Assembly (NCBI RefSeq): GCF_023721415.1 | Contig: NZ_JAMQVC010000003.1 | Span: forward strand, 1-64,000 | DNA from: Galbibacter mesophilus | GTDB lineage: Bacteria; Bacteroidota; Bacteroidia; Flavobacteriales; Flavobacteriaceae | Length of the DNA: 64,000 nucleotides | Direction: 5' to 3' | Shown: positions 15,115 to 30,570 of the stretch, piece after piece | Layout of the letters: each line of letters begins with the position of its first letter | Numbering within the stretch: the stretch's first letter is position 1 | Notes under the pieces: model-generated | What the model was told of the DNA's origin: nothing | Database searches by the model: none | The model's input: the letters and a program-made list of their open reading frames with translations, nothing else | Program-made: the position numbers and the translations under genes

Positions 15115-16560
15115 TTACCCAATCTGTTTTTCCAATTTAATTTTTTTAAAGTTTGTTTTCGGAGCGTCACACATAGAACAAGTGTAATTTTCAGGTAATT
15201 TTTCAAAGGCTGTGTTTGGTGGAATTGCTTGGGTGTGGTCACCGTATTTAGCATCGTAAATTGTTAAGCAATCTTGACATTGATGAGCTTCTGAGATCAT
15301 TTCCTTTTTAATCTCTGTTGTCTCCTCTTTCGGACTGCTTTGTTCTTCTCCCAACTGTTCAAAATACATTTTACTGAGCTCCATCAATAAACCGGGCAGC
15401 TCTACTTTATCAATGTCTTGCACATGGGTAATATACTCCAAAGTATTTGGGTCGAAGTTTTTTGCATACAGCAAATTATAAGTGTCCCGAATGGTAAAAT
15501 TACCGGGAATTTTAGGCTGCTTGTTTTTTTCAACTACAATGGAAGTAAAATAATACGCTTTTTTGGTGTAATAAGTAATTCCAAAGGTGAGTCCGTACGT
15601 ACTGATGTCGTTTTGGTCGAAATTGGAGACTAAGTATTTTTTCAGTTTTAAAGCTTCTTTATTGGCTACCGGTAGATGCCAATTAAGCTCCAACAAAGAA
15701 TGGCGAACGTTAATTCCTCTTTTTCCAAGGAATTTTTCCCACTTCAGTTTAAATTCTGATTGTATTCCTTTTATAATAAACGACTTCCACGGGGTGATAC
15801 AAATTTTTCCAATTTTGCACTCCGCACACAGGTCGCACATGTCTTTTAAGAAACTTAGATCGTATTTGTTATTTCTCCAATACAAGCCAAGCCAATATTT
15901 GTCCGTTCCCATTTTGTTCATGCCTTCGTAATAAGGGAAGGGGTGAAATGGTACATGCAATGGAGTATCTATGGTTCTGTTATTGGTGTCGATTGCGTCG
16001 TTTACCAAGTCAAAAATCATTTCAACTGTTTCCGGTTCTTCCTGTAATACGTTTTCAATAGCCAAAGAAACTTTTGCAATATCCCAACTATAAATTAATG
16101 CAGGGTAAGAAACTACTTTTTCCCAATGAGGGAGGCGTATGTTTAAAAACCAGTAATCTTCGTGGTTGGAGGCTACAAAATTTAAGTGACCTGTAAAAAG
16201 AGGGACTAAGCGCTGTTTTGGATCAACAATGTTGATTTTCAGTGTTGGATGATGCCTAAATTGCTCTAAAATATAAAGGTAGCGATCGCCAGTAAGCCAA
16301 GGAGTTTTCGGGAAAATATCAGCAGAAACATACGAACAAACAATATTTTCGGAGCCGCTTTCGTCGGGGGCAATCCATTCCATGGCATTGAAATTGGATA
16401 GATTTTCTTCAGTAATCTGTTTGGAAAATAGAATGTCTTGCCTTGAACCAAAAGAAATACTTTTTAGTCCGGCATTTTCTGCTGCGACGGCAATAGTCTT
16501 TAATTCGCCAGGCGATAAAACGCCTCCTTTTATGATGAGTCTGTTGAGTTCCTTTTTCAT
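15115..16560 (-). CDS. Nitrite/sulfite reductase-like protein with C-terminal rubredoxin domain
   Basis: A 481-residue protein of the nitrate cluster. The N-terminus (RLIIKGGVLSPGELKTIAVAAENAGL...FGSRQDILF) looks like the ferredoxin-like half-domain of nitrite/sulfite reductases. A cysteine cluster at 242, 245, 248 and 254 precedes TPWKSFIIKG, a segment reminiscent of siroheme enzymes and CobG. After a Glu/Lys-rich linker the last ~55 residues are a rubredoxin with Cys428, Cys431, Cys461 and Cys464. I use the ATG at 16560, 12 bases after the nitrate reductase stop. The canonical C-x5-C...C-x3-C siroheme/4Fe4S pattern is not seen, so catalysis is uncertain; an electron-transfer or accessory role in nitrate reduction is inferred. 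Confidence 0.75.
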   Translation of the reverse strand: MKKELNRLIIKGGVLSPGELKTIAVAAENAGLKSISFGSRQDILFSKQITEENLSNFNAMEWIAPDESGSENIVCSYVSADIFPKTPWLTGDRYLYILEQFRHHPTLKINIVDPKQRLVPLFTGHLNFVASNHEDYWFLNIRLPHWEKVVSYPALIYSWDIAKVSLAIENVLQEEPETVEMIFDLVNDAIDTNNRTIDTPLHVPFHPFPYYEGMNKMGTDKYWLGLYWRNNKYDLSFLKDMCDLCAECKIGKICITPWKSFIIKGIQSEFKLKWEKFLGKRGINVRHSLLELNWHLPVANKEALKLKKYLVSNFDQNDISTYGLTFGITYYTKKAYYFTSIVVEKNKQPKIPGNFTIRDTYNLLYAKNFDPNTLEYITHVQDIDKVELPGLLMELSKMYFEQLGEEQSSPKEETTEIKKEMISEAHQCQDCLTIYDAKYGDHTQAIPPNTAFEKLPENYTCSMCDAPKTNFKKIKLEKQIG

Positions 16561-16571
16561 TGCATTAAATT

Positions 16572-19500
16572 TTAAGCTAACACGCTGCTGTTCTTTAGAA
16601 TTTCCCTCACTTCCGTTTTGCAACTTCCACAGCCCAACCCGGCACCAGTTTGTTTGCAAAGCGTTGTAAAGTCTTCACATCCTTGATTAATGGCTTCTTC
16701 AATATTCCCGGCACCCACTTGGCTACAGGAACATATTAATTTTCCTATAACGGGCTTTGTATTGTTGGAACCGCGAAGTAGAGTATTTCTTTTATCCGAC
16801 AATTCCACTTTCCCTTCAATCATTTCTTTAAATTCAGCAAACTCATTTTTATCGCCCATTAAAATAGCGCCAATAAGTAAATCGTCTTTTACAATGCATT
16901 TTTTATAGTATCGCTTGCTAACATCCGTAAAAATTATTTCTTCGTAACTGGTATCATTTTCAGGAATATTAATGTCGCCTATACTGCACAGATTCAAGTC
17001 GTTGAACTTTAAAATATTCATCAATACAGAACCTTTGTAATTACTGCTTACGTCGCCTGCAATAAAATTGGAAAGAATATTTGCTTGCTCTTCTGCTGCG
17101 GAAGTAATTCCGAATAAATTATTATTAAACTGTGCTATTTCGCCAATGGCAAAAATAGAAGTGTCGGAAGTTTGTAGGTGTTGGTTTATCTTGATTCCCC
17201 TACCACATTCAATTCCTGCTTGTTTGGCAATTTCAATGTTTGGCCGCGTTCCAATGGCGTAAACAATGGCATGTGCATTGAAGGTTTTTCCACTTTTTAA
17301 AGTAATGGACAGCTCTCCGCTTTCATCATCATCAAAAACGGTGCTAACTTCATTATCAAAATAAATTTGAACACCTCTTTCCTGTACGTCCAACGCTAAA
17401 AGTTTGCTGGAAATTTTGTCCAATTGTCGTTCCATTAATCTGGAAGAACGCTGTACAATGGTAATTCTAACTCCTTGATGCTTTAAAGCTGCAGCCAACT
17501 CCAATCCTAATAATCCGCCCCCAACAATAACCACATGTTGTTCTTCCACTGGAAGATTGGTTTTTTCTAAATGCGATTTAAATTCATCAGCATCTGTTTT
17601 GCTGCGCAGCGTAAAACGACCGGGCAAATCCAGTTGCACATCATTGGGTACAAAAGCTCTACTTCCCGTAGCCAAAATAAGCTTGTCGTAGTGATGTGTT
17701 TCACCGTAAGAGTCGGTAATGGTTTTTTCTTCTTTGCTTATTTGTTCTACGGAAGTATTCCCGTGCAAGTGTATTTGAAGTTTACTTAATTCCTTGTTTT
17801 TTATTTTCTGAAGTTGCTCCCAAGAAAGTTCTTCAGTAACGTATTCCGGTAATAAAACACGATTGTAAAATGGATGTTGCTCTTGGGAGAAAACATGAAT
17901 TTCATCAGAAGAATTATGCTCACGATAGTTCTGTACAAACCTGAATGCCGCTGCTCCCGCACCCACGACAATTATTTTTTCTTTCGCTTTTTTATATTTC
18001 GTAACCGATACCGCCGTGAATTTAAAGTCAGGTTCTTTAGATTGTGGATCTACGATATTATTGGTAAGGTTATTCGCTCTGTTGAGGTCGCTCTTTAAAA
18101 TTTTACCCCAATGCATGGGGATAAAAACCACGCCTTCCCGTACCGCATCGGTTACTTTAGTACGAAGACGAACAACACCATTTTTACTTTTAATTTCGGC
18201 AATATCCCCATTTTTTAGTTGATACAGATATGCGTCCACAGGATTTATTTCCAAAAGTGGAGTAGGGTAGTGCGTATGCAAACGGGATACTTTTCCTGTT
18301 TTTGTCATCGTGTGCCATTGGTCCCTTACTCGCCCGGTAGTGAGAATTAGCGGGTAATTGCTATCGGGTTTTATGGAGGCATTTTCCGTACTGTAGGGAA
18401 CGTTGAAGATAGCTTTTTGCGAAGGGGTGTAAAACTTCCTATCCTCAAAAAGTCGTTTTGTTCCGGGATGTCTGTATTCTGGAACAGGCCATTGGATAGT
18501 CCCTTCTTTCTTTAGTCGATCGTAATTCAAAAAGGAAATATCGATATTCGTTCCTTTTGTCATATCGCAATATTCCCTGTAGATTTCTTCGGTAGCATTG
18601 TAATTAAATCCACGAAAGCCCATTTTATTGGCAAAATCGCATAAGATTTCCACATCGGGTCTGGCTTCGCCGGGTGCGTTCAATGATTTTGGGAGATAGG
18701 AAATCCTTCTTTCGGAATTGGTCATCGTACCCTCTTTTTCCAACCAAGCCGCGGCTGGAAGCAACAAATCAGCCAGTTTAGTAGTGTCGGATTTATGGGA
18801 GATATCCTGTACAACCACAAATTTGGCATTTTTCAATGCTTTTTCAACCTTTCTTGCATTGGGCATACTCACAAGCGGATTGGTACAAACAATCCATACA
18901 GCTTTCAATTTTCCTTTTTCAAGCGCATCAAACATTTCGGTTGCCGTGTAACCAGGTTTCCCCGAAATACTATTTACACCCCAAAATTGAGCCACTTCCT
19001 TTCGGTGGTCTTCGTTCAACAAATTTTTATGGGCCGCCAATAAATTGGCCATTCCACCTACCTCTCGACCGCCCATGGCGTTTGGTTGTCCAGTAAGCGA
19101 AAAAGGACCAGAACCGGGCTTTCCAATTTGTCCGGTAATTAGCGATAGATTCAGTAAAGAAAAGTTTTTGTCGGTGCCCACCACACTTTGGTTAAGTCCC
19201 ATGGCCCACATGCTAATAAATCCTTTAGAAAGACCTATCATGTCGGCCGCTTTTTTTATATCGTTTACCGAAACCCCGCAAATAGTTGCCGCTTTTTTAA
19301 GGGACGTTTCTAAAATTTGCTGTTTGTATTTCTGAAAATTCTCGGAGTGGTTTTTAATAAAATCATAGTCAATTAACCCACGTTCCAACAGTCTTCTGCC
19401 AATGGCATTGTACAAAGTAATATCTGTTCCGGGGATAATTTGTAGGTGAAGATCAGCAAAATTGGCAGAGTCCGTTTTACGGGGATCTACTACTATTATT

Positions 19501-20093
19501 TTGACGTTCGGATTTTCTTCTTTGTGCTTTTCAATTCTTCGGAATAGGATTGGATGACAAAAAGCAGGATTCGCACCAGCTATTAAAAAACAATCTGCTA
19601 ATTCAATATCGTCATAACAAATAGGCACAGAATCTTCCCCAAACGTTTTTTTATAACCAACCACTGCAGAACTCATACAAAGCCTAGAATTGGTATCGAT
19701 ATTATTAGTGCCTAAAAAACCTTTGCTGAGTTTATTGGCAATGTAATATTCTTCCGTTAAACACTGCCCAGATACGTAGAAACCCACACTATCCGGGCCG
19801 TGCTTTTTAATGATGGATTTGAAAACTGAAGCCGCTCTTTCCATGGCATCATTCCATGAAACGCGTTCTCTTGGGTGCGATTTGCTCCATCGCATTTCTG
19901 GGTATAAAATTCTATCTGAAGTATCGTTGGCAACGTAATGAAGGTTCATGCCTTTAGAACACAACATACCTTTGTTAACAGGATGGTCTTTGTCCCCTTC
20001 TACGGTGACTCTATTTTGTGCATCCTTTTTAACAATTATTCCGCAGCCAACACCACAATAAGAACAGGTGGTTTTTACTTCTTCTTTCAACAT
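16572..20093 (-). CDS. Assimilatory nitrate reductase fused to FAD/NAD reductase and [2Fe-2S] domains
   Basis: A 1173-residue fusion. Residues 1-690 are a bis-MGD molybdoenzyme: the N-terminal 4Fe4S ligands are Cys10, Cys13, Cys17 and Cys45, and the likely Mo ligand is Cys139 in SRLCMSSAV. Residues about 705-1090 form an NirB-like pyridine-nucleotide-disulfide reductase module with FAD motif GAGAAA (711-716) and NAD motif GGGLLG (858-863). The C-terminus is a BFD-like [2Fe-2S] domain with Cys1121, Cys1123, Cys1155 and Cys1158. It should reduce nitrate to nitrite with NAD(P)H on one cytoplasmic polypeptide, combining the NasB and NasC roles of Bacillus-type systems. No Tat leader is present, as expected for an assimilatory enzyme. 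Confidence 0.93.
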   Translation of the reverse strand: MLKEEVKTTCSYCGVGCGIIVKKDAQNRVTVEGDKDHPVNKGMLCSKGMNLHYVANDTSDRILYPEMRWSKSHPRERVSWNDAMERAASVFKSIIKKHGPDSVGFYVSGQCLTEEYYIANKLSKGFLGTNNIDTNSRLCMSSAVVGYKKTFGEDSVPICYDDIELADCFLIAGANPAFCHPILFRRIEKHKEENPNVKIIVVDPRKTDSANFADLHLQIIPGTDITLYNAIGRRLLERGLIDYDFIKNHSENFQKYKQQILETSLKKAATICGVSVNDIKKAADMIGLSKGFISMWAMGLNQSVVGTDKNFSLLNLSLITGQIGKPGSGPFSLTGQPNAMGGREVGGMANLLAAHKNLLNEDHRKEVAQFWGVNSISGKPGYTATEMFDALEKGKLKAVWIVCTNPLVSMPNARKVEKALKNAKFVVVQDISHKSDTTKLADLLLPAAAWLEKEGTMTNSERRISYLPKSLNAPGEARPDVEILCDFANKMGFRGFNYNATEEIYREYCDMTKGTNIDISFLNYDRLKKEGTIQWPVPEYRHPGTKRLFEDRKFYTPSQKAIFNVPYSTENASIKPDSNYPLILTTGRVRDQWHTMTKTGKVSRLHTHYPTPLLEINPVDAYLYQLKNGDIAEIKSKNGVVRLRTKVTDAVREGVVFIPMHWGKILKSDLNRANNLTNNIVDPQSKEPDFKFTAVSVTKYKKAKEKIIVVGAGAAAFRFVQNYREHNSSDEIHVFSQEQHPFYNRVLLPEYVTEELSWEQLQKIKNKELSKLQIHLHGNTSVEQISKEEKTITDSYGETHHYDKLILATGSRAFVPNDVQLDLPGRFTLRSKTDADEFKSHLEKTNLPVEEQHVVIVGGGLLGLELAAALKHQGVRITIVQRSSRLMERQLDKISSKLLALDVQERGVQIYFDNEVSTVFDDDESGELSITLKSGKTFNAHAIVYAIGTRPNIEIAKQAGIECGRGIKINQHLQTSDTSIFAIGEIAQFNNNLFGITSAAEEQANILSNFIAGDVSSNYKGSVLMNILKFNDLNLCSIGDINIPENDTSYEEIIFTDVSKRYYKKCIVKDDLLIGAILMGDKNEFAEFKEMIEGKVELSDKRNTLLRGSNNTKPVIGKLICSCSQVGAGNIEEAINQGCEDFTTLCKQTGAGLGCGSCKTEVREILKNSSVLA

Positions 20094-20253: not shown

Positions 20254-21678
20254 TTAACCATTTGCGGTAACAAGTTTACCAGAAGTGGCCTGCATTTCTT
20301 CTTGCGCTATTTTTTCATCTTGGGAAGAGAAACGAATAGCCAATGCACTTATTCCTGTTACTACCACCAGCATTCCAATCATTAAATAACCACTGGAAAC
20401 CGCATTTGCAGCTGCCTCCGATTGGGCCGCTTTTATAATAGCTTCTCCCAGCCCTTGATTCTCTGCAATAGCTGCTTTTTCTGCTACTGCCGATTTAGAT
20501 TTTAGCAATAATGCTGCTAGGAATGCACCCACATTTCCACCAGCGCCTACAATTCCGGAAATAGATCCGATAGCTTTTTTATTTATAAAAGGCACCACAG
20601 AAAAAGTAGCTCCTTCCGCCATTTGCGTGGAAAGACTAAAAGCTATCAAGAATATGATTCCGGCAATTAGGCTGGTCATTGTGGAAAAAACCGTCAGCAT
20701 AATACCTTCAACGGTTAAAATGGCCACTAAAAATAGCACTCTACCTCTCAAACCTTTTAATTTTCCGAAGCGATCGCCAAAGAAACCACCTAATGTTCGT
20801 GCAAAAATGTTCATTAAGGCGAAGGATAAAACGATATTTCCAGCGGTAAGTCTGTCTAATTGAAAAGTATTTTGAAGATAATCGTCCATGGTTCCATAAA
20901 CGGTTAGTTCGATTCCGAAGCAAGCGGCGTACACCACAAATAAAATCCAAACCCTATAATCTTTAACAGCTTCTAAAAAGCCAACTTCATCTTTTTTTGC
21001 ATTTGGAAGTTTTTTCCCTTCCTCTTTTAGCTCTTTAACATTTCCTTCCGGAGTATCTTGGGTAAAAAAATAATACACCAATCCCATCAAAAAGCAAGAA
21101 GAACCAGCGATTACCATTGCATATCGCCAAGCTTCCGATTCTGCTACTCCAAAACTTATAACCGCTGCTGCAATTAATGGCATCCCCAAACGATTGGCAC
21201 CACCACCTAGATTTCCCCAACCGGCAGAAGTTGCGTTGGCCGTCCCAACTATATTAGAAGCGAACATCAGGGAAGTGTGCACTTGTGTAATTACAAAGGA
21301 TGCGCCAATAAAACCAATAAGGAATCGGCATACTAAAAATTGAAAGGGTGTTACGGCCAATCCGCTTAAAATTACAGGAATGGAGCCTAATACCAATAGC
21401 CAAGTATAGCATAATCTCGGCCCGTACTTGTCGCAGAGTTTGCCTATTAGCAATCGGGCGAAAACGGTTCCCGTAACTGCTAAAATAACTGAATTCCATT
21501 TTTGGTCGGGTGTTAATCCCAGTTCTTTTACTACGTCTGGCATAAACGGAACAATCCCGAACCAAGAGAAAAAACATAGAAAGAATGCAAAAGAGGAAAT
21601 CCAAAATGTTCTAATAGGAACACTTTTCAGGTCGGTAAGGTTTAGTTTCGTTGCTTTGGTGGTTACTGTTGTCTTCAT
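20254..21678 (-). CDS. Nitrate/nitrite MFS transporter (NarK/NasA type)
   Basis: A 474-residue major facilitator with about 12 membrane helices. The nitrate-porter signatures are visible: the glycine-rich GWGNLGGGANRLGMPL segment after helix 4 and the second motif GIVGAGGNVGAFLAALLL. The segment FARLLIGKLCDKYGPRLCY matches the MFS loop 2-3 motif. It imports nitrate or exchanges nitrate and nitrite across the inner membrane. It is followed by the nitrate reductase fusion gene (160-base gap, same strand) and preceded by a cluster of palindromes that probably control it. A ~60-residue insertion with an Ala/Glu-rich segment separates the last helices. Confidence 0.93.
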   Translation of the reverse strand: MKTTVTTKATKLNLTDLKSVPIRTFWISSFAFFLCFFSWFGIVPFMPDVVKELGLTPDQKWNSVILAVTGTVFARLLIGKLCDKYGPRLCYTWLLVLGSIPVILSGLAVTPFQFLVCRFLIGFIGASFVITQVHTSLMFASNIVGTANATSAGWGNLGGGANRLGMPLIAAAVISFGVAESEAWRYAMVIAGSSCFLMGLVYYFFTQDTPEGNVKELKEEGKKLPNAKKDEVGFLEAVKDYRVWILFVVYAACFGIELTVYGTMDDYLQNTFQLDRLTAGNIVLSFALMNIFARTLGGFFGDRFGKLKGLRGRVLFLVAILTVEGIMLTVFSTMTSLIAGIIFLIAFSLSTQMAEGATFSVVPFINKKAIGSISGIVGAGGNVGAFLAALLLKSKSAVAEKAAIAENQGLGEAIIKAAQSEAAANAVSSGYLMIGMLVVVTGISALAIRFSSQDEKIAQEEMQATSGKLVTANG

Positions 21679-21754: not shown

Positions 21755-21873
21755 AATACGTATTCCAATACTTAAATTTCAATGATAAAATTAAGTATTA
21801 ATACTTAATAAATAAAATATAAATACGTATTTATTTGATTTTTAATGAAAAAGGATTTTTAAGTATTTAAAAT
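21755..21873. promoter_or_regulatory. Cluster of palindromic operators upstream of narK
   Basis: Four palindromic or near-palindromic sites sit in about 120 bases. AATACGTATT (21755-21764) is perfect over 10 bases. TTAAGTATTAATACTTAA (21791-21808) is perfect over 18 bases. ATAAATACGTATTTAT (21819-21834) is perfect over 16 bases. TTTAAGTATTTAAA (about 21859) is partial. The 18-mer core TAAGTA-N4-TACTTA occurs again directly upstream of nirB at 30441-30456. TACTTA resembles the NarL/NarP heptamer TACYYMT, so the NarL-like regulator encoded at 22092 is the natural candidate binder; this is inference. Confidence 0.6.
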
Positions 21874-21920
21874 GAGGTATTTTGAAAAATGGTTGAAGAA
21901 AACTATAAAAATGATTTTTT

Positions 21921-21976
21921 TGCTAGATGCTAGATGCTAGATGCTAGATGCTAGATGCTGGATGCTAGATGCTGGA
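21921..21976. repeat. Heptanucleotide tandem repeat (GCTAGAT)n
   Basis: Seven to eight uninterrupted or once-mutated copies of GCTAGAT/GCTGGAT lie between the narK operator cluster and the 3' end of the NarL-like regulator gene. Short exact repeats like this vary in copy number by strand slippage. I see no coding role. Confidence 0.9.
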
Positions 21977-22091
21977 AGTCTGCAGACAGAGGTCGAAAGC
22001 CGGAGGCTGGATTTGGAGCCTTTTCCTTTTTAACTGCTGAAATGTTTACGTATTTTGATTTTAGATTTGAGATGGTTTGGAGCAGGATTTT

Positions 22092-22751
22092 TCACGCAAA
22101 ACCATACATGCGCGCTTTGTTAGCAAGTTCAATCTGATTTTTAACATCCAGTTTTTTCATCAAATTAAATCTGTGGACTTCGGCAGTGCGCTTGCTGATT
22201 TTTAATTCTTCGGCAATTTCTTTGTTGCTTAGTCCTTTTAAAACGTGTGTAAGAATTTGTTTTTCACGCTTCGTAAGGTTAAAATCGGCTTCTATGGTTG
22301 CTGTATCCGTTTTTTCGATAGGTTTTCCATCCACAAAATTGTTGATGATAATGGAAGATACATCTCCAGTAAAATACTTTCCGCCGTCTGCAACCGTGTG
22401 TAAGGCTTTTAGGAATTCTTCTTTGCTAGAACCTTTCAATAAATAACCATCGGCTCCAGCTTGAATAGATTGAACAACATATTCTTCGGAATCGTGCATG
22501 GAAAGTACCAAAGCTTTCACTTCAGGAGAAGACTTTTTAAGATGCTTTACCACTTCGATTCCGTTCATTTCCGGCATACGGATATCAACGACCAGCAAAT
22601 CGGGTTTGTGGTTGGCAATAATTTCCAGTGCCTCCTTCCCATTGGAAGCTTCATCAATTACTTTTATGGATTGATCATCTTCTAAAATGGATTTAATGCC
22701 GTCCCTTACCAGCACATGGTCGTCTGCCAAAACTATATTTATAGTGTTCAT
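22092..22751 (-). CDS. NarL/LuxR-family response regulator
   Basis: A 219-residue two-domain regulator: a receiver with DD at 10-11, phospho-acceptor Asp56 in VVDIRMPEMNG, and Lys in GYLLKGSSKEE; then a LuxR-type helix-turn-helix (about 150-215) with LTKREKQILTHVLKGLSNKEIAEELKIS. It is likely the output of the nitrate-type kinase at 24934, from which it is separated by a large lipoprotein gene. It lies upstream of narK on the same strand and probably controls the nitrate genes. The segment before its ATG contains TAAGTA (22782-22787) and TACTTA (22804-22809), perhaps an autoregulatory site. Confidence 0.92.
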   Translation of the reverse strand: MNTINIVLADDHVLVRDGIKSILEDDQSIKVIDEASNGKEALEIIANHKPDLLVVDIRMPEMNGIEVVKHLKKSSPEVKALVLSMHDSEEYVVQSIQAGADGYLLKGSSKEEFLKALHTVADGGKYFTGDVSSIIINNFVDGKPIEKTDTATIEADFNLTKREKQILTHVLKGLSNKEIAEELKISKRTAEVHRFNLMKKLDVKNQIELANKARMYGFA

Positions 22752-22827
22752 TTCCCGTTCTAAGTGTTAGAATTTCTAAACTAAGTACTAAAGTACGGAA
22801 AAATACTTATTCTGCATCAATGACTGA

Positions 22828-24873
22828 TTATTCTATGATTTCCACAAAAAAGTCTGGATTTACGAAGGAATGACTTTTAAGATTTTCTCTCTTAAAATAG
22901 CTTGAAATACTAACTAGTTGTCCTTTGTAGTTTTGAAATAGTAAATGTGGAAAACCTTTTGAGGCAATGGTCCTTGTGGTTTGGTTCTTTCTATCATGGA
23001 TAAGTACATTTTTTGTAAAGTCTTCTCCCAAGGAAGACGGATTATTGCTGGTTCCATAAAGTAAATTTCCGTCCTCACTTATACCATAGGTCGTTTCGGG
23101 ATATGTTAAGGTATTTTTTAGTGAATAAGAGTTAGTAGAGTAAATTTCTTTTCTAAAGCAATTAAAAATCTCTTTGGAAATGGGGTTGAAAAAAGTTCTT
23201 AGTATATCGTTATACATTGGTATGTCTACAGAAGTACTATTTATAATTGTTCCATTGTCGTCAAGAGTGTAACGGTAACTCTTGCCTTCATAATTATGTC
23301 CAACTAAAAACTCATTGTCAGTGATTTTTAATATTTTGTAATTAAAAAAAGCTTGATGTTCTGAAAAGTGGGGTTGTTTATCAAGTAAATTTAAAATGTC
23401 GTTATTTCTTCTTAAGGTATATACGTAATCGTGGTCTGTTACACACCAAATATCACCTTTGATATTGATAAAATCATCTTCATATATGTAATTGTCGAGT
23501 TTTATTGCATATTTAAAATTTAAGTTTTCTGCGTCGAAAGTGTAAAGTTGCCCATGTTGCGAAAAAAAGAGCTCGTTTCCATTTTCAGAATTAAATAATC
23601 TCATCTCCTCATCAGTAGAAATGTTTGGTGTTTTTGAGGCTGTGGCCTCTACTTTCATAGTCTCGTAATTATATTTAACAAGTTGAAGATTTCCACCTTC
23701 CCTATTGCCGTAAATATAAATTATTGGTTTAGTTTCTGAATAGGTAAAAAAGTATATTTTATTGAAATCAAGTGTTCCAGGCCTTGTGAAATTAACTTGT
23801 TTATCATTAATGTTTTGCTTTATTTCACTCTTGTTGCCAAAAATATCAATAGCATATATTTGATAAAATGGATTTACTACATAAGGCGGATTTGTATCTG
23901 TAAATGATGTTGTATTAACATCCTGAATCTGTGCAACCTCTTCAAAATATCCTTCGGAAAGACTTATGGACGAATTTGAACCGTTGGTCGTTATTAAATA
24001 ATGGGAGAAATAAATGGAGGCCGATGGTGTCCAATTTAGTGTAACACTTGTGTTGTTCGGTATGGGTTCAGAAAGTTCAACGCCTGGAATGATAAGATCC
24101 TGTGTGCGGATAGAATGAATATTGCTTTCTCCAATGAGACCTTTATCATTATAAATTTTAAAAAAATAGTACAGTTCTTCTTCCACAGGAGGATTTGAAT
24201 CAATATATGATGTTTGACTTACCTCTGATATGGAAGCCAACAATTGGCTATCACTTTTGGAATAACTTCTTGATCTATATATTTCATACCTGTTAAACTT
24301 ATTTGTTCCTATGTAAGAATTCCATACAAGTTCTATTTTATCAGTTTTGTAGTGGTCTTGCCTTATAAAAAAGGAATCCGAATAAATATCCTTGTCATTT
24401 GGAGGGTTGTAGGAATGCGCAGTAACATTGAATATTTGATCTGTCAAACTAGCACTTACATCTAGTTTAATTTTAAAAATAAAACTAGTGCCGCTAAGTT
24501 TTGTTATAACAAGTTCTTGTCGTTTTCCATTCGAATCGGTTACCGTAAGAACACCATCGTTTAACTTCCATTGAGATAAATGAATATCTGCTCCGCAAGT
24601 AAAACTATCCTTGAAAATATATTCACGATATTTGCCATCGGCAGTAATAAGTGTAAAATCAGATCCACACTCGGAAACAGATGGCTCTATAATAATAATT
24701 TCCCCATCATGCTCAATGGATGTTATTGCCCATGCACCAATTAAGTCTTCTTCTTTGGCTGATGTTAAAGCATTTATATAAAAAATGTCTTCGCTGTCTT
24801 GATTGTCATCTTCAGAACATCCTAAAAAAATAAAGCAAATTGCTATGGCTAAAAAGGGTTTAAGGTTCTTCAT
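22828..24873 (-). CDS. Large lipoprotein with lipocalin-like and Fn3-like regions
   Basis: A 681-residue protein with a lipobox (FIFLGCSEDD, Cys19) and an acidic Asp/Glu-rich start that fits surface lipoproteins of Bacteroidota. Residues about 40-140 resemble the lipocalin-like DUF found in such proteins (LIGAWAITSIEHDGE). Two fibronectin-like modules follow, marked by DKIELVWNSY...FNRYEIYRS and NNTSVTLNWTPSASIYFSHYLI. The second half looks like a repetitive beta structure, with stretches such as KIYFFTYSETKPIIYIYGN. No enzyme motif is seen. It interrupts the kinase and response regulator pair and has its own -7 box, so it is more likely a separate surface protein than a member of the nitrate pathway. 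Confidence 0.75.
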   Translation of the reverse strand: MKNLKPFLAIAICFIFLGCSEDDNQDSEDIFYINALTSAKEEDLIGAWAITSIEHDGEIIIIEPSVSECGSDFTLITADGKYREYIFKDSFTCGADIHLSQWKLNDGVLTVTDSNGKRQELVITKLSGTSFIFKIKLDVSASLTDQIFNVTAHSYNPPNDKDIYSDSFFIRQDHYKTDKIELVWNSYIGTNKFNRYEIYRSRSYSKSDSQLLASISEVSQTSYIDSNPPVEEELYYFFKIYNDKGLIGESNIHSIRTQDLIIPGVELSEPIPNNTSVTLNWTPSASIYFSHYLITTNGSNSSISLSEGYFEEVAQIQDVNTTSFTDTNPPYVVNPFYQIYAIDIFGNKSEIKQNINDKQVNFTRPGTLDFNKIYFFTYSETKPIIYIYGNREGGNLQLVKYNYETMKVEATASKTPNISTDEEMRLFNSENGNELFFSQHGQLYTFDAENLNFKYAIKLDNYIYEDDFINIKGDIWCVTDHDYVYTLRRNNDILNLLDKQPHFSEHQAFFNYKILKITDNEFLVGHNYEGKSYRYTLDDNGTIINSTSVDIPMYNDILRTFFNPISKEIFNCFRKEIYSTNSYSLKNTLTYPETTYGISEDGNLLYGTSNNPSSLGEDFTKNVLIHDRKNQTTRTIASKGFPHLLFQNYKGQLVSISSYFKRENLKSHSFVNPDFFVEIIE

Positions 24874-24895
24874 ATCAGTCGGTTAGTAATTTCGC

Positions 24896-24903
24896 CGAAA
24901 GTA
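24896..24903 (-). promoter_or_regulatory. -7 box (TACTTTCG) for the large lipoprotein
   Basis: On the minus strand the site is TACTTTCG, a one-base variant of TAnnTTTG, 22 bases before the lipoprotein ATG. It suggests that this gene has its own transcript inside the nitrate cluster. Confidence 0.4.
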
Positions 24904-24933
24904 ATAAATATTTAAATACGAGAATGAAAAATT

Positions 24934-26739
24934 TTACAAAGGAACATTAATGGTAATCCGCGTACCTTTTCCAGGTGTGGAAGTCATAAATAATCTACCG
25001 TTGATATAATTTATGCGCTCTTTCATAAAGGTAAGCCCCATGCCGCCTTCCCCGTTTTTTCTGGGGGTTATCTTTTCGGGCTCAAACCCCTTTCCATTAT
25101 CATCAATAGTAATGCTCAATAAATCTTTGCTATGTGAAACCGTGACGATAATATGGGATGCAGATGCATATTTAATAGCGTTGTTAACGGCTTCCTGTGT
25201 TATTCGATAGATATTTATTTCGGTTAATGAATCAAGACGTTCGCTAAAATCGGTTTTGTTTACAAATACAATATTTTCACCTGTGAATTTAGCGAGCTCG
25301 ATACATAATTTGGTGAGTGCAGGTGCAATTCCATGATCAGTTAATTCTGGCGGAGCTAAATTGAAGGTTGCAGTGCGAACTCCTTTAATAATATTGGCGG
25401 TTAGTTCCTTAAGATGCGATACTTTTTCGGTTGTTTTTTCAATATTTTCGGGATTAATACTTTCAATATTAAATTTTAATCCTGTTAACATTTGTCCGAT
25501 ACCGTCATGAATATCTTTGGCAATCCTATTCTGTTCCTTTTCTTGGTTTTCAATAATTTTTGCCGATAATGTTTTCTGTTGATCTATTTGCGCTTCAAAA
25601 CGTTCCTTGTTAAGTTTTTCTATTTGAAGTTTGGCCAGTTTACGTTCTGTTATATCAAAGCAGATAAGGAGTAGTTCTTCTTTCTGTTCTCCCGGATGAT
25701 AAGGAATTAAAGACATTTCCAGCCAAATAGGCTCTTCATTGGGGAGTGTGCCTTTTATTTCTCCTTGCCACCCCGTATTTTGATGATTGATGATTACATT
25801 TTCAATAATCTCCTGCTCTTTTTCACGGGAAGATATCACTTCAGAAAATTTCGTATTGGCACTGAAACTTCGGTAATTTACTTTGCTGGAAAATTTATTT
25901 CCTAGGTGAACCAAAAAGCCTTCAGGAGTAATGCGCGCAAATAAAAGTGTTTGTTCCATTACCAAACTCAAAGCCTTTAGCTGCTTAACCGACCTTTCTT
26001 TTTCTTGGCTCAGTTTATCAGCGTTAAAAGCCATTTTTCTGGCATTTTCTTCAGAATCCAATAAGCGCTTGATGGTTTGTTTGGTACGCTTGGCGGCAGG
26101 CCAAAAAATGAATAGAAACTCAGCTAAAAGTATTGTCAATGTAATTATCAGAAGAATAACCTCCAGTCGTTCTAGTTTTTCAACTTTTCGGGTAGCCTCT
26201 TCATCGTATTGGTTTACAATGCTATCCATCTTCTTTAAAAAGAAAGTTTCATTGGCAAGAATGTCGTTAACTTCTGCCTGGATATTGACTTCTGGTTGGT
26301 TTTTAGCGGTTTTTTCCAGTATTTTTTTTACTGAAGTTTGAATCTCTTCAAAATATGGTTGAATTTCCAGAAACATTTTTTCTATTGTTTCTGAGTTGTG
26401 GTTATTTAGTTGAAGGCTGTCGCTACCTTCTTGAAGTGCGTAATGGGAAACCGTCCAAGTCTGTAAAGTTTCTTGAATGTTTTTTCTTTGAAGATACTTT
26501 TCTTCTGAAGAGGTATTGGTATTGAGCAACAATACCTGTTTGGTTAATTGCTGACTCAGCATTCGTTGGCGACCAGCAATATTGATGGTTCTGGCATCGT
26601 CTTGCTGATCGCGGATGTAAATGCGCACCAAAATCTGGCTAACGATTACAGACACAGCTATTGCGCTAAGGGCAATAATGTATAGTTTTCTTAGCCGATT
26701 GAATGTGTTTTGGTCCAACGATGTGACCTTGGTGCTCAT
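24934..26739 (-). CDS. Nitrate-type sensor histidine kinase (NarX/PilJ-like sensor, PAS, HisKA_3)
   Basis: A 601-residue membrane kinase. TM1 spans about 18-40 and TM2 about 193-214, bracketing a periplasmic helical domain whose first helix carries INIAGRQRMLSQQL (52-65), equivalent to the P-box nitrate-binding region of NarX and PilJ-type sensors. A PAS-like region (about 255-365) and a HisKA_3 domain follow, with His411 in RIAKDIHDGIGQ, N box EAVNNAIKYA and a G-rich ATP lid GEGGMGLTFMKERI. The expected signal is nitrate or nitrite in the periplasm. It starts 7 bases after the DUF4202 stop, so nirD, DUF4202 and the kinase form one operon. Confidence 0.92.
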   Translation of the reverse strand: MSTKVTSLDQNTFNRLRKLYIIALSAIAVSVIVSQILVRIYIRDQQDDARTINIAGRQRMLSQQLTKQVLLLNTNTSSEEKYLQRKNIQETLQTWTVSHYALQEGSDSLQLNNHNSETIEKMFLEIQPYFEEIQTSVKKILEKTAKNQPEVNIQAEVNDILANETFFLKKMDSIVNQYDEEATRKVEKLERLEVILLIITLTILLAEFLFIFWPAAKRTKQTIKRLLDSEENARKMAFNADKLSQEKERSVKQLKALSLVMEQTLLFARITPEGFLVHLGNKFSSKVNYRSFSANTKFSEVISSREKEQEIIENVIINHQNTGWQGEIKGTLPNEEPIWLEMSLIPYHPGEQKEELLLICFDITERKLAKLQIEKLNKERFEAQIDQQKTLSAKIIENQEKEQNRIAKDIHDGIGQMLTGLKFNIESINPENIEKTTEKVSHLKELTANIIKGVRTATFNLAPPELTDHGIAPALTKLCIELAKFTGENIVFVNKTDFSERLDSLTEINIYRITQEAVNNAIKYASASHIIVTVSHSKDLLSITIDDNGKGFEPEKITPRKNGEGGMGLTFMKERINYINGRLFMTSTPGKGTRITINVPL

Positions 26740-26746
26740 ATTATAA

Positions 26747-27331
26747 TTAGGCTAAAGCTTTTTGTATAAGTGTCAAGCTTTTCTGGTCTAAAGGAAGTTT
26801 GAGAGCAGCTTGGTGACCTTTTTCAGACATCTTACCCCATGTTTTTTGTAAAATATCCACTATTTTTTCATCTGGGTGTTTGGCGGCAAAATCTTCAAAA
26901 TAATACTGAAGGAAAACCAAACAAACCACATCTTCCAAGGTTTGGGAGTCTTCATCTTTTTTCAGCATTTTCTTACGTATTAAAAAAGAAACTCTTTCAA
27001 TGAAATCTGTATCATAGCCAACTTCAGTTAAAATTTCAGAAGTAAGCTGGGCATGCATCTTTTTTAATTCTTCACGCCATTTTAAATAGCCTACACGGTC
27101 CATTGGGTATGAATCCCTATCAATTTTCCAACGTGCAATGTGCTGTGCACGAGCGGCTATTTGTAGTTCTTCGCTGGCTTCCGGTTCAAAAGACAACAGC
27201 GTTTCTGTCATTCGCTGCGAATATAAAAGTTCTTTTGGATGTTCTTTTCCTTGGTAATTTTCTGTATTTGGGTCTTGCGCGTTTAAACGGTCTATTTTTT
27301 CAATTGCTTTATTGAAATTAGGTGTATTCAT
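26747..27331 (-). CDS. DUF4202-family protein of the nitrate operon
   Basis: A 194-residue cytoplasmic protein, mostly alpha-helical, with family-typical segments AIEKIDRLNAQDPN, KELLYSQRMTETLLSFEPEASEELQIAARAQHIARWKIDRDSYPMDRVGYLKWR and VCLVFLQYYFEDFAAKHPDEKI. The His/Arg-rich AAxAQHIxRWxxPR-like stretch resembles HD-domain phosphohydrolases only superficially. Function is unknown; placement between nirD and the nitrate sensor kinase ties it to nitrate or nitrite use. It starts 12 bases after nirD. Confidence 0.8.
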   Translation of the reverse strand: MNTPNFNKAIEKIDRLNAQDPNTENYQGKEHPKELLYSQRMTETLLSFEPEASEELQIAARAQHIARWKIDRDSYPMDRVGYLKWREELKKMHAQLTSEILTEVGYDTDFIERVSFLIRKKMLKKDEDSQTLEDVVCLVFLQYYFEDFAAKHPDEKIVDILQKTWGKMSEKGHQAALKLPLDQKSLTLIQKALA

Positions 27332-27343
27332 GTCTTCGTGTAA

Positions 27344-27721
27344 TTAATCTGTGAAGCCAATATACACATTTTCATTTTCAATTTTTACAGGGTAGGTGGC
27401 AATTTTGTAGTCTTCGCCGTTTAGGTTTTCTCCATTTTCTAAAGAAAACGTCTTTTTGTGCAAGGGACAAGCTACTTTTGGAATGCCGCTTGCGTCGCCA
27501 ATCATTCCTCTGGAAAGTACCATTTCCATTTTATGCGGACAAAGGTTTTGGCAGGCATACCAAGCGGATTTGCGGGTGAAGTTGTAAACCGCAATTTGCT
27601 TGGATTTATACTTAACGCAAGCGCCCCCATTCTCTGGGAAGTCGTTTATATTTCCAGCGTTGAACCAATGCATAACTTTGTTTTGAGTAACCGATTGATA
27701 TTGTTGAAGTAGTTGTTCCAT
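27344..27721 (-). CDS. nirD: Nitrite reductase small subunit, Rieske-type
   Basis: A 125-residue NirD-like protein. It has both Rieske ligand pairs, Cys61-x-His63 (NLCPHKME) and Cys85-x-x-His88 (ACPLHKK), so it should bind a [2Fe-2S] cluster; many classical NirD proteins have lost these residues. It is the small subunit of the cytoplasmic NADH-dependent nitrite reductase with NirB encoded upstream. The gap to nirB is 184 bases and contains a hairpin, so its expression may not be strictly coupled to nirB. Confidence 0.9.
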   Translation of the reverse strand: MEQLLQQYQSVTQNKVMHWFNAGNINDFPENGGACVKYKSKQIAVYNFTRKSAWYACQNLCPHKMEMVLSRGMIGDASGIPKVACPLHKKTFSLENGENLNGEDYKIATYPVKIENENVYIGFTD

Positions 27722-27837
27722 TTTTTATCGTGTTTTGAACCTTGAATTGAGGTTTTTATTACAGTGTGTTTTTTATAGAATTAAATACAGCTTTTTATAA
27801 GCTACTTGGGCGTGCTACAAAGGATTTAGCTTTTCAG

Positions 27838-27880
27838 TTGGCAGCGTTTACACAACTGACTTAATAAGTCCCGCTGCCAA
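27838..27880 (-). other. Nested hairpin between nirB and nirD
   Basis: TTGGCAGCG (27838-27846) pairs with CGCTGCCAA (27872-27880), and an inner GACTT (27858-27862) pairs with AAGTC (27866-27870). No T tract follows on either strand, so it does not look like an intrinsic terminator. In the nirB-nirD transcript it could be an RNA processing or stability element. Confidence 0.5.
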
Positions 27881-27905
27881 CCGATACACTAAACACTGTA
27901 ATTTA

Positions 27906-30416
27906 TTAAACCCAAGCCTTTGGCATTTTTTGATCCCTGAGTGATACGTATTCAATGTTGTCGTCGCTGTCATCGGTGTTGACAAAATGCTTGAATCGTT
28001 TCATCATTTCTGGGTCTTCAATTGCCTGTTTCCATTCACATTCGTATTTATCAACTAAGCCTTGCATTTCTTTTTCCAAATCTTCGGCAATTCCTAATGA
28101 ATCTTCAATAACCACCTTTTTAAGGTATTCTATCCCGCCATCGAGTTTTTCCAACCATGGAGCAGTACGGGTGAGAGGTGCAGCTGTTCGGATGTAAAAC
28201 ATTAAGAACCGATCGAGATATTTAATACATGTTTCATCATCCAGCTGTTCCGCCAATAAGATAGCATGTTTCGGCGTAGCACCTCCGTTACCACATACAT
28301 ATAAGTTCCAGCCGCCTTCCACGGCTATGAGTCCGAAATCCTTTCCTCTCGCCTCAGCGCACTCACGGATACACCCCGATACGCCACCTTTTAGTTTGTG
28401 TGGGGAACGCAGTCCGCGGTATCTGTTTTCAATTTCAATGGCGAAAGAAACACTTTCGTGCATTCCATAGCGACACCAAGTAGATCCCACGCAACTTTTA
28501 ACGGTTCGAAGCGATTTTCCGTAAGCATGGCCGCTTTCAAATCCGGCATCTATCAATTCTTTCCAGATAAGGGGAAGTTGGTGTAGTTCGGCACCAAAAA
28601 GATCGATACGTTGTCCGCCCGTAATTTTGGTATAGAGGTCATATTTTTGTGCAACTTTTCCAAGTACCATTAATTTTTCCGGAGAAATCTCGCCGCCCGG
28701 AACACGAGGTACTATAGAATACGTTCCGTTTCGTTGAATGTTTGCCAAAAACCGATCGTTGGAATCTTGAATGGTTACCTGCTTGTTGGCGGTTTCCATA
28801 TAAATGCTGGCAAAGAGTGAAGCGAGTAGCGGTTTACAGGTTTCACAACCATCGCCTTTTCCAAAAAGATTTAATGCTTCGTCATAAGTTTGTACTTTAT
28901 TTATTTTAATGAGGTCGTAAAGTTCCTGTCGGTTGTAATGGAAATGTTCGCAAATGGTTTCTTTAACTTCTTTTCCTAAAGATTTTAGGGTTTCATTTAC
29001 TAAATCAACCACCATAGGTTTACAGCCTCCACAGCCAGTTGTGGCCTTAGTGCTTTTAACAACATCGGAAAGTGAAGTACAAGTTTCGTCTTTGATCATT
29101 CCGCAGATGCTTCCTTTGGTCACGCTTTCACAGGAACAAATTTGTGCAGAATCGGGAAAATCCATTACACTTCCTACGGAAGAACTCTCGCCACCCCGAG
29201 CACCTAGAATGAGATCTTCAGGGTTTTCAGGCAATTTCATTTCGTTGATGTACAATTGAAAAAGCGTATTATAATCTGATGCATCTCCAACTAAAATACC
29301 TCCCAGTAGTTTTTTACCATCTTTTGTAACGTTTATGCGTTTGTAAATTCCTTTGTGTTTGTTTTCAAAAGCAATTACTGAAACATCATCATTTTCAATA
29401 AATGGATCTCCAAAACTAGCTACTTCCGTGCCGATAAGTTTCAACTGGGTAGACATGTCTATACTTGAAACCATGGTAACATCGCCGCCCGTAATCTGCT
29501 CTACGGCTACGTGGGCCATATCGTATCCAGGTGCAACCAAGCCGTAGATTCCATTGTTATAAAGAGCAACTTCACCAATTGCGTAGACATCTTCTGCTGA
29601 GGTTTTCATTTGGTTGTTTACCCAAATACCACCACGTTCACCTACCTTTATGCCCGCTTCCCTTGCGAGTTCGTCGCGAGGACGAATTCCAGCGGATATA
29701 ATAAGCATGTCCACTTTTAAGTTGGTGTCGTCGTTAAATTGCATAGCTTCAATAGCGCCGTTTCCAACAATTTCAGAGGTTGCTTTTTCCAAATGGACTT
29801 TAATGTCCATCGATTCAATTTTACTTTTTAAAAGGTTACTTGCGGGAAGGTCTAGCTGTCTCGGCATTAGGCGCGGTGCAAACTCAACAACATGGGTTTC
29901 CATCCCTAATTCCTTTGCTGCGTTCGCAGCTTCTAGTCCTAGCAGTCCGCCACCAAGTATGGCAGCCTTTGCTTTGCCTTCTTTTTTAATTTTTGAGGCA
30001 TAGCTTTTCATTGCATCGAGGTCTTCAAGCGTGCGATAAACGAACACTCCAGCTTTTTCAGAACCTTTAATGGGCGGAATGAAGGGGGAGGAACCTGTCG
30101 CGATTACTAAGTAGTTGTAGGTGTATGTTTCATTCCTATACGTAGTTATTTCTTTTTTCTGAGTATCAATTTTAGAAATCAGGGAAGAAGTATGTAGTTT
30201 TATATTATTTTCTTGGTACCAATTGGCGGGAGCCATTAAAAGCTCTTCTGCCGACTTTTCTCCAAAGTACTCGCTTAGATGAACCCTGTCATATGCTGGT
30301 CTTGGCTCTTCTCCAAATACTTCTATTTCATAATCATTTCTATTTGGTTTGCTAACTAGTTTTTCACAAAACTTATAACCAACCATTCCGTTTCCGATAA
30401 CTATAATTTTTTTCAT
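27906..30416 (-). CDS. nirB: Nitrite reductase large subunit, NADH-dependent
   Basis: An 836-residue enzyme reducing nitrite to ammonium in the cytoplasm. Domain order: FAD/NAD reductase (VIGNGMVGYKFCE at the start, second Rossmann AAILGGGLLGLEAAN), two BFD-like [2Fe-2S] segments (ICSCESVTKG...TTGCGGCKP and GKGDGCETCKP), then the ferredoxin-like and siroheme/4Fe4S halves with CVGSTWC and CIREC (C-x5-C and C-x3-C). I use the ATG at 30416; the longer frame needs a TTG start inside the -7 box. The promoter contains the shared palindrome. It is first in the gene order nirB, nirD, DUF4202, kinase. Confidence 0.96.
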   Translation of the reverse strand: MKKIIVIGNGMVGYKFCEKLVSKPNRNDYEIEVFGEEPRPAYDRVHLSEYFGEKSAEELLMAPANWYQENNIKLHTSSLISKIDTQKKEITTYRNETYTYNYLVIATGSSPFIPPIKGSEKAGVFVYRTLEDLDAMKSYASKIKKEGKAKAAILGGGLLGLEAANAAKELGMETHVVEFAPRLMPRQLDLPASNLLKSKIESMDIKVHLEKATSEIVGNGAIEAMQFNDDTNLKVDMLIISAGIRPRDELAREAGIKVGERGGIWVNNQMKTSAEDVYAIGEVALYNNGIYGLVAPGYDMAHVAVEQITGGDVTMVSSIDMSTQLKLIGTEVASFGDPFIENDDVSVIAFENKHKGIYKRINVTKDGKKLLGGILVGDASDYNTLFQLYINEMKLPENPEDLILGARGGESSSVGSVMDFPDSAQICSCESVTKGSICGMIKDETCTSLSDVVKSTKATTGCGGCKPMVVDLVNETLKSLGKEVKETICEHFHYNRQELYDLIKINKVQTYDEALNLFGKGDGCETCKPLLASLFASIYMETANKQVTIQDSNDRFLANIQRNGTYSIVPRVPGGEISPEKLMVLGKVAQKYDLYTKITGGQRIDLFGAELHQLPLIWKELIDAGFESGHAYGKSLRTVKSCVGSTWCRYGMHESVSFAIEIENRYRGLRSPHKLKGGVSGCIRECAEARGKDFGLIAVEGGWNLYVCGNGGATPKHAILLAEQLDDETCIKYLDRFLMFYIRTAAPLTRTAPWLEKLDGGIEYLKKVVIEDSLGIAEDLEKEMQGLVDKYECEWKQAIEDPEMMKRFKHFVNTDDSDDNIEYVSLRDQKMPKAWV

Positions 30417-30434
30417 GACTACGTAATTTGTTTT

Positions 30435-30456
30435 CAAATATAAGTAAAAATACTTA
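30435..30456 (-). promoter_or_regulatory. nirB promoter: -7 box and adjoining TAAGTA-N4-TACTTA operator
   Basis: Minus-strand TATATTTG (30435-30442) is an exact -7 match, and its location shows that nirB must start at 30416 rather than upstream. It is joined to TAAGTAAAAATACTTA (30441-30456), which differs from the narK palindrome core at two positions. ATACGTAG (about 30464) and ACTACGTAA (about 30418) are further copies of the TACGTA element seen near narK. The operator abuts the -7 box, so the mode of control may differ from narK. Confidence 0.6.
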
Positions 30457-30570
30457 ATTAAATATACGTAGTTTAACTTGTGTTGTCGTGGATGTCTTAT
30501 TTTTGAAGATATTTTATTTTTTCTTGGGCTAAATTTTAAGATATGTAATTGCTGCTATCTAAAAACAAAA

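Follow-up and report, generated by a model that had tools for sequence, protein, structure and literature searches.

Several described regulatory systems bear on the control of nitrate genes in Bacteroidota (statements about the papers cited here refer to the parts of them available to us). NarL of Enterobacteria binds inverted heptamers with TAC on the outside and a 2-bp gap (TACCCCTAAAGGGGTA; PMC4549865), and FixJ of rhizobia recognizes TAAGTAATTTCCCTTA, with GTAMGTAG as the word obtained by systematic evolution of ligands by exponential enrichment (PMC4999443, citing earlier work). In the NreBC system of staphylococci the kinase senses oxygen, and the response regulator, which controls nitrate genes, has a palindromic, GC-rich site (PMC8139620). 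For Bacteroidetes, a nitrate two-component pair, narHK/narRR, was described in 2021 (PMC8199190); the available part of that account covers kinase diversity and gene neighbourhoods, Joostella marina among them, and holds no operator, regulon or promoter architecture. Here we analyse a stretch of 64,000 nucleotides from Galbibacter mesophilus (the window: positions 1 to 64,000 of the forward strand of contig NZ_JAMQVC010000003.1, assembly GCF_023721415.1), in which such a pair lies among nitrate and nitrite genes and whose nearest named relatives are Galbibacter and Joostella. We describe a 16-bp palindrome, with the consensus TAMGTA-N4-TACKTA, in front of the nitrite reductase gene nirB and the transporter gene narK; it is most likely the operator of a nitrate-sensing two-protein switch encoded beside the nitrate-use genes. 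The pair belongs to a known group, and no described operator or regulon for Bacteroidota nitrate sensors was found in the literature searched, a search that most subscription papers lay outside. The analysis yields an operator under strong conservation together with a predicted regulon, a candidate regulator and a promoter rule, all open to direct testing in Flavobacteria from sea and soil.

The preliminary description of the window had noticed the two palindromes, identical at 14 of 16 positions, with a regulator gene between them, and both observations hold:

21792-21807, minus strand: narK operator, TAAGTATTAATACTTA, an exact match to the palindrome TAAGTA-N4-TACTTA
30441-30456, minus strand: nirB operator, TAAGTAAAAATACTTA, an exact match to the same palindrome, differing from TAAGTATTAATACTTA at 2 of 16 positions
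20254-21678, minus strand: narK-type transporter of the major facilitator superfamily (MFS_1; named narK by resemblance), predicted target
27906-30416, minus strand: nirB, NADH nitrite reductase large subunit, predicted target
22092-22751, minus strand: narRR, NarL/FixJ-family response regulator with Response_reg and GerE domains, proposed binder
24934-26739, minus strand: narHK, NarX-type sensor kinase with PilJ, PAS, HisKA_3 and HATPase domains

These are the only exact copies of TAAGTA-N4-TACTTA in the window, and none of 100 dinucleotide shuffles of the window contained two (mean 0.00). Looser counts are unremarkable: up to two mismatches give 9 matches in the window against 5.8 expected, which is background; the whole genome (3.77 Mb) holds 4 exact copies where about 1.2 are expected from the window's composition; and with one mismatch the motif occurs at 21 places against 44 for a backwards control. 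Such numbers are compatible with a chance likeness of two AT-rich palindromes, a reading to which we give next to no weight, as it is refuted by conservation of the site between diverged flanks. The evidence is the location of the sites; the count alone proves nothing, and mismatch counting was dropped as evidence because the one- and two-mismatch counts were at background.

Conservation was followed in two sets of loci. Within the family, 199 genomes were searched and 45 further nirB loci were fetched, which with this one gives 46; a separate collection of named loci (the best 80 of 403, partly from the same organisms as the family set) was scored at the 12 fixed positions of the consensus. 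In the family loci, the motif lies before nirB within two mismatches in 46/46 cases (within one in 42) and before narK in 24/24 (within one in 18), and at the two-mismatch level it also precedes narRR in 27/30 loci and the nitrate reductase gene nasC in 12/26, as against 0/45 for narHK, 2/46 for nirD and 0/45 for the DUF4202 gene, which served as controls. All 12 positions are matched in the named loci before nirB in 78/80, narK in 35/38, nasC in 24/59 and narRR in 2/74, with control genes reaching at least 11/12 in 0/80, 0/80 and 0/78. The full nirB site is present even in 17/17 named loci of Algoriphagus, which belongs to another order (Cytophagales). Pairwise identity between nirB sites is 0.92-0.93 in the half-sites, a value raised by the selection of sites at 11/12 or better, and 0.34-0.38 in the flanks, which is background. 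The first reading of the window thus undersold the operator, which is conserved in many Flavobacteria and some relatives.

The palindrome stands in a fixed relation to the predicted -7 box, which in flavobacteria is the sigma-A element TAnnTTTG at -12 to -5 (PMC9723704):

30435-30442, minus strand: predicted nirB -7 box, TATATTTG, sharing 2 bp with the palindrome
21786-21793, minus strand: predicted narK -7 box, TAATTTTA, an imperfect match, sharing 2 bp with the palindrome

In nirB and narK alike, the box begins on the TA that closes the palindrome, and this overlap recurs across relatives; it contradicts the preliminary suggestion that a -7 box requires neither element. We collected 127 distinct nirB promoters (46 from the family, 76 from named and 5 from class-level loci; one of them, L189, from a genome lacking the pair), and in 102 of them TAnnTTTG starts at offset 14 of the palindrome, while the second most common offset accounts for 7 promoters. 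The same offset carries TTTG in 16/61 and TTTR in 46/61 distinct narK promoters. Before nasC, TAnnTTTG starts at offset 24 in 13/31 promoters, and 15/31 have a third half-site, at offset 20; before narRR, TAnnTTTG starts at offsets 22-25 in 24/45. Compared with nirB and narK, the distance between palindrome and -7 box is larger by about 9-10 bp in the narRR promoters and in many of those of nasC. Given the offsets in the nirB, narK and nasC promoters, fusion of a half-site with the -7 box is frequent. The palindrome is thus built into the predicted core promoter, the nirB and narK sites spanning about -26 to -11.

A fixed register of this kind, strict in nirB and less so in narK, would also be expected if the element were part of the promoter of an alternative sigma factor and the palindrome incidental. 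We regard this as very improbable. The degeneracy is symmetric, an A or C on the left being mirrored by a T or G on the right (the third half-site position across the nirB sites is A in 26 and C in 20), TAnnTTTG is itself the flavobacterial sigma-A box (PMC9723704), and the spacing shifts in narRR and many nasC promoters; it was on account of these shifted -7 boxes that an alternative sigma factor was rejected.

The half-site of the operator, TAMGTA, equals that of FixJ, the operator is likewise a 16-bp imperfect palindrome, and the same choice of A or C is found at the third position. TACTTA had been assigned to the NarL heptamer, consensus TACYYMT, and this assignment fails: TAC lies inside, with a gap of 4 bp, whereas NarL sites have TAC outside and a 2-bp gap, and the 7-2-7 arrangement was rejected by both orientation and spacing. 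The regulator gene between the two sites encodes a receiver domain and a GerE (LuxR-type) helix-turn-helix, with Asp56 as phospho-acceptor. At least 93 of 125 orthologs have exactly its recognition helix, SKRTAEVHRFNLM (a number that overlap between the two collections keeps from representing 125 independent proteins). This helix resembles that of FixJ, SPRTVEVHRANVM, with which it shares the pattern RTxEVHRxNxM, more than that of NarL, TESTVKVHVKHML. Against solved structures, the helix-turn-helix of narRR matches EsrB and FixJ better than NarL, while over its whole length narRR matches NarL best (1a04). Asp56 and Lys106 are kept in 125/125 aligned orthologs, and ordinary phosphorylation control is therefore to be expected.

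The likeness to each known system is partial. The sensor is of NarX type, as in the NarL/NarP systems, and narK and nirB are NarL/NarP targets in E. coli as well, whereas the sites and the recognition helix differ. From FixJ the locus departs in kinase, signal and targets, and also in its operator, a complete and symmetric palindrome within the core promoter, the FixJ-bound fixK regions lying at -69 to -44 and -57 to -31 (PMC4999443). narHK has PilJ (1.9e-15), HisKA_3 and HATPase_c domains and a PAS_9 match of 26.6 bits, just below the 27-bit cutoff, and the domain search of the window proteins gave no match to HAMP or GAF in it; PilJ and PAS without HAMP or GAF, with linked nitrate and nitrite genes, is the pattern of the Bacteroidetes nitrate sensors (PMC8199190). 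Taken together, we consider it very probable that narRR binds the shared nitrate operator. As a nitrate/nitrite-sensing NarX-type kinase, narHK would phosphorylate narRR, and a narRR dimer would then bind TAMGTA-N4-TACKTA and control nirB, narK and separately promoted nitrate reductase genes, with further targets in a moeA/outer-membrane-protein gene pair in this genome and a Crp/Fnr regulator in some relatives. We infer that nitrate is the signal.

The distribution of the pair agrees with this assignment. narHK, narRR and nirB each occur in 46/199 family genomes, the same 46, and kinase, regulator and nirB are linked in the loci; the 17 family genomes whose fetched loci yielded no complete regulator gene in a first scan all have an ortholog in the genome (51-71% identity; paralogs reach 43% at most). 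A composite motif, the palindrome with its -7 box, occurs in 43/46 genomes with the pair against 6/153 without it, amounting to 93 and 6 matches, respectively, with 3 and 4 for the backwards control. The nirB sites of the three exceptions with the pair (G001, G024 and G075) read ATTG instead of TTTG, and in the genomes lacking the pair, inspection by eye turned up no evident nitrate gene at any of the six composite sites (L195-L200). At class level, nirB was present in 15/295 genomes, and the 13 not already covered were examined. Seven of them, from three families (G311, G307, G424, G353, G290, G209 and G382, loci L186-L192), have no ortholog of the pair, their regulator matches staying at or below 44%, in the paralog range, and their kinase matches being C-terminal only or absent; a full site precedes nirB, narK or nasC in 0/7 of these, with a single 11/12 match 236 bp from nirB. 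The four genomes with orthologs (L182-L185) have a full site before nirB, narK, nasC or narRR. The site, its conservation, its fixed register, the predicted regulon and the co-occurrence with narHK/narRR were all obtained by computation. Of the earlier proposal, the shared nitrate-gene operator and the intervening regulator as best candidate thus stand, on very strong conservation and co-occurrence, and the NarL-heptamer assignment falls.

Several observations weigh against narRR as the binder or limit how far they single it out. narRR, narHK and nirB are co-inherited, so that the family data alone cannot single out narRR, and the Fisher value for the co-occurrence, 2e-33, is overstated, the genomes being related. 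At class level the negatives amount to 7 genomes from 3 families, and 2 of the 4 positives (L183 and L185) are of the locus's own family; L184 has its full site only before narRR and 11/12 at nirB. Two further class-level genomes, G437 and G485 (L193 and L194), have a distant PilJ kinase and regulator (38-42%) near nirB and no nirB site above 10/12; another operator may be used there. Among the named loci, one nirB region (L226) has nothing at 11/12 or better and another (L229) has 11/12. In G002, G082 and G180 the kinase match covers the C-terminal part only and the motif is kept; the kinases in the narHK position of G082 (L106, 5613-6977) and G002 (L121, 5875-7212) have no PilJ by Pfam and retain PAS and kinase domains, and the nirB operator is kept in both loci. 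Of the 21 extra sites found in relatives with the pair, two (L217 and L218) have no nitrate gene by eye. Finally, autoregulation of narRR as a general rule is not supported outside the family sample: in the named loci the site before narRR is weak, with 19/74 at 11/12 or better.

A Crp/Fnr-family protein had also been named as a possible binder of the palindrome in place of narRR, a proposal we consider improbable. FNR-type sites have a G 5 bp from the dyad, as here, and a Crp/Fnr gene with N-terminal cysteines adjoins nirB in some loci (L117 and L121) and itself has the motif in front of it in 12 of the 21 extra regions (L201-L221). By our own threshold of at least 54% identity, however, an ortholog of this protein is present in 34/46 motif-bearing genomes, and the other 12, this genome (G000) included, have only paralogs at or below 37% or none. 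Distant relatives of the protein are encoded in nirB loci that have no full site (L186-L190 and L192), and the half-site matches FixJ. Its absence from 12/46 genomes rules out the Crp/Fnr protein encoded beside nirB, the one testable here, as the general binder; it is a target instead, and some other Crp/Fnr paralog might, with low probability, be the binder. Further sites in relatives stand before genes for nitrate reductases, transporters, NrtA-like proteins and outer-membrane proteins. Downstream of the Crp/Fnr gene with an operator (L202-L205, L208, L210-L214, L219 and L220), the next gene is globin-like or NrtA-like by eye in 11/12, one globin being confirmed.

With narRR as the binder, the sign of its action is less firmly indicated. 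On balance the bound operator would activate, which we hold to be somewhat the better-favoured outcome. A TTG at -33 is found in 16/115 nirB, 11/47 narK and 56/183 control promoters; it is rarer in nirB than in controls (p 0.001, with related promoters that are not independent), and this scarcity resembles activator-dependent promoters and would be odd if the promoter had to be held off. From knowledge of the pathway, moreover, nitrate is expected to induce assimilation genes. On the other side, narK shows no clear -33 TTG deficit (p 0.37), and a position over the -7 box is the one usually expected of a repressor. narRR might accordingly bind and repress, blocking the -7 region, with nitrate or phosphorylation relieving or driving the block; this possibility, which overlaps with the foregoing, we rate as rather unlikely. 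It draws on the position of the site, at about -26 to -11 and meeting the -7 box in most nirB promoters, and on precedents in both relatives: NarL acts as a repressor of frdA through a 7-2-7 site close to the start (PMC4549865), and in R. palustris the nif genes are repressed by unphosphorylated FixJ (PMC13327599). Were narRR an activator, a tentative extension, to which we lend less than even credence, is that a FixJ-like nitrate regulator activates across Bacteroidota from inside the -33/-7 spacer in a MerR-type manner. A half-site fused to the -7 element (TACK-TAnnTTTG) would then replace the missing -33 contact and define a promoter class for the unusual sigma-A polymerase of the phylum, a suggestion we put forward with the same reserve. 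The overlap with the -7 box makes it testable how regulators act on Bacteroidota sigma-A promoters with the -7 box TAnnTTTG.

In the genome as a whole, nitrate or molybdenum-cofactor genes lie behind 3 of the 4 exact copies. The third copy (C2:985630) lies between moeA, which has MoeA domains, and a gene for a 423-aa outer-membrane protein with a weak Alginate_exp match below cutoff, and the fourth (C5:99788), 5' of a GFO/IDH/MocA-type oxidoreductase gene, is probably due to chance. The motif with its -7 context, TAMGTANNNNTACKTANNTTT, has 4 exact matches in the genome, namely narK, nirB and two in the moeA/outer-membrane-protein gap; with one mismatch it has 13, against 10 for the control. 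No nitrate gene was evident by eye, from short translations, adjoining 13 loci with one-mismatch sites. In the moeA gap (L005, 10610-10645) the two operators are 20 bp apart and the genes divergent, one operator facing each.

Further elements related to the palindrome in the window include a weak copy before narRR, which suggests possible autoregulation, and the nearby TACGTA words that had been noted earlier and were found again:

22794-22809, minus strand: weak operator copy upstream of narRR, TAAGTATTTTTCCGTA, with 2 mismatches to the exact word and 11/12 of the degenerate consensus
21757-21762, strand unassigned: extra TACGTA half-site downstream of the narK operator
21769-21774, strand unassigned: extra TACTTA half-site downstream of the narK operator
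21824-21829, strand unassigned: extra TACGTA half-site upstream of the narK operator
30420-30425, strand unassigned: extra TACGTA half-site between the -7 box and the nirB start, close to the latter
30465-30470, strand unassigned: extra TACGTA half-site upstream of the nirB operator

In relatives, such additional half-sites favour particular offsets: across the collected nirB promoters, one recurs at offset +30 in 55/127 and others at -12 to -14.

The remaining genes of the cluster are as follows:

27344-27721, minus strand: nirD, nitrite reductase small subunit (Rieske_2)
26747-27331, minus strand: DUF4202 gene, without an operator of its own
16572-20093, minus strand: fusion of a nitrate reductase with NAD(P)H reductase domains, following narK
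15115-16659, minus strand: protein with half a nitrite/sulfite-reductase domain and a C-terminal rubredoxin

The nitrate reductase fusion, a single protein of 1173 aa, carries NAD(P)H-oxidoreductase, Rubredoxin_C and Fer2_BFD domains beside the nitrate reductase and has near full-length matches in many relatives' loci; the open reading frame at 15115-16659 overlaps the end of its own. Between narHK and narRR lies the gene for a 681-aa lipocalin-domain protein (22828-24873), and between narK and the regulator gene a tandem array of the 7-bp unit TGCTAGA runs for 7.6 copies (21921-21973).

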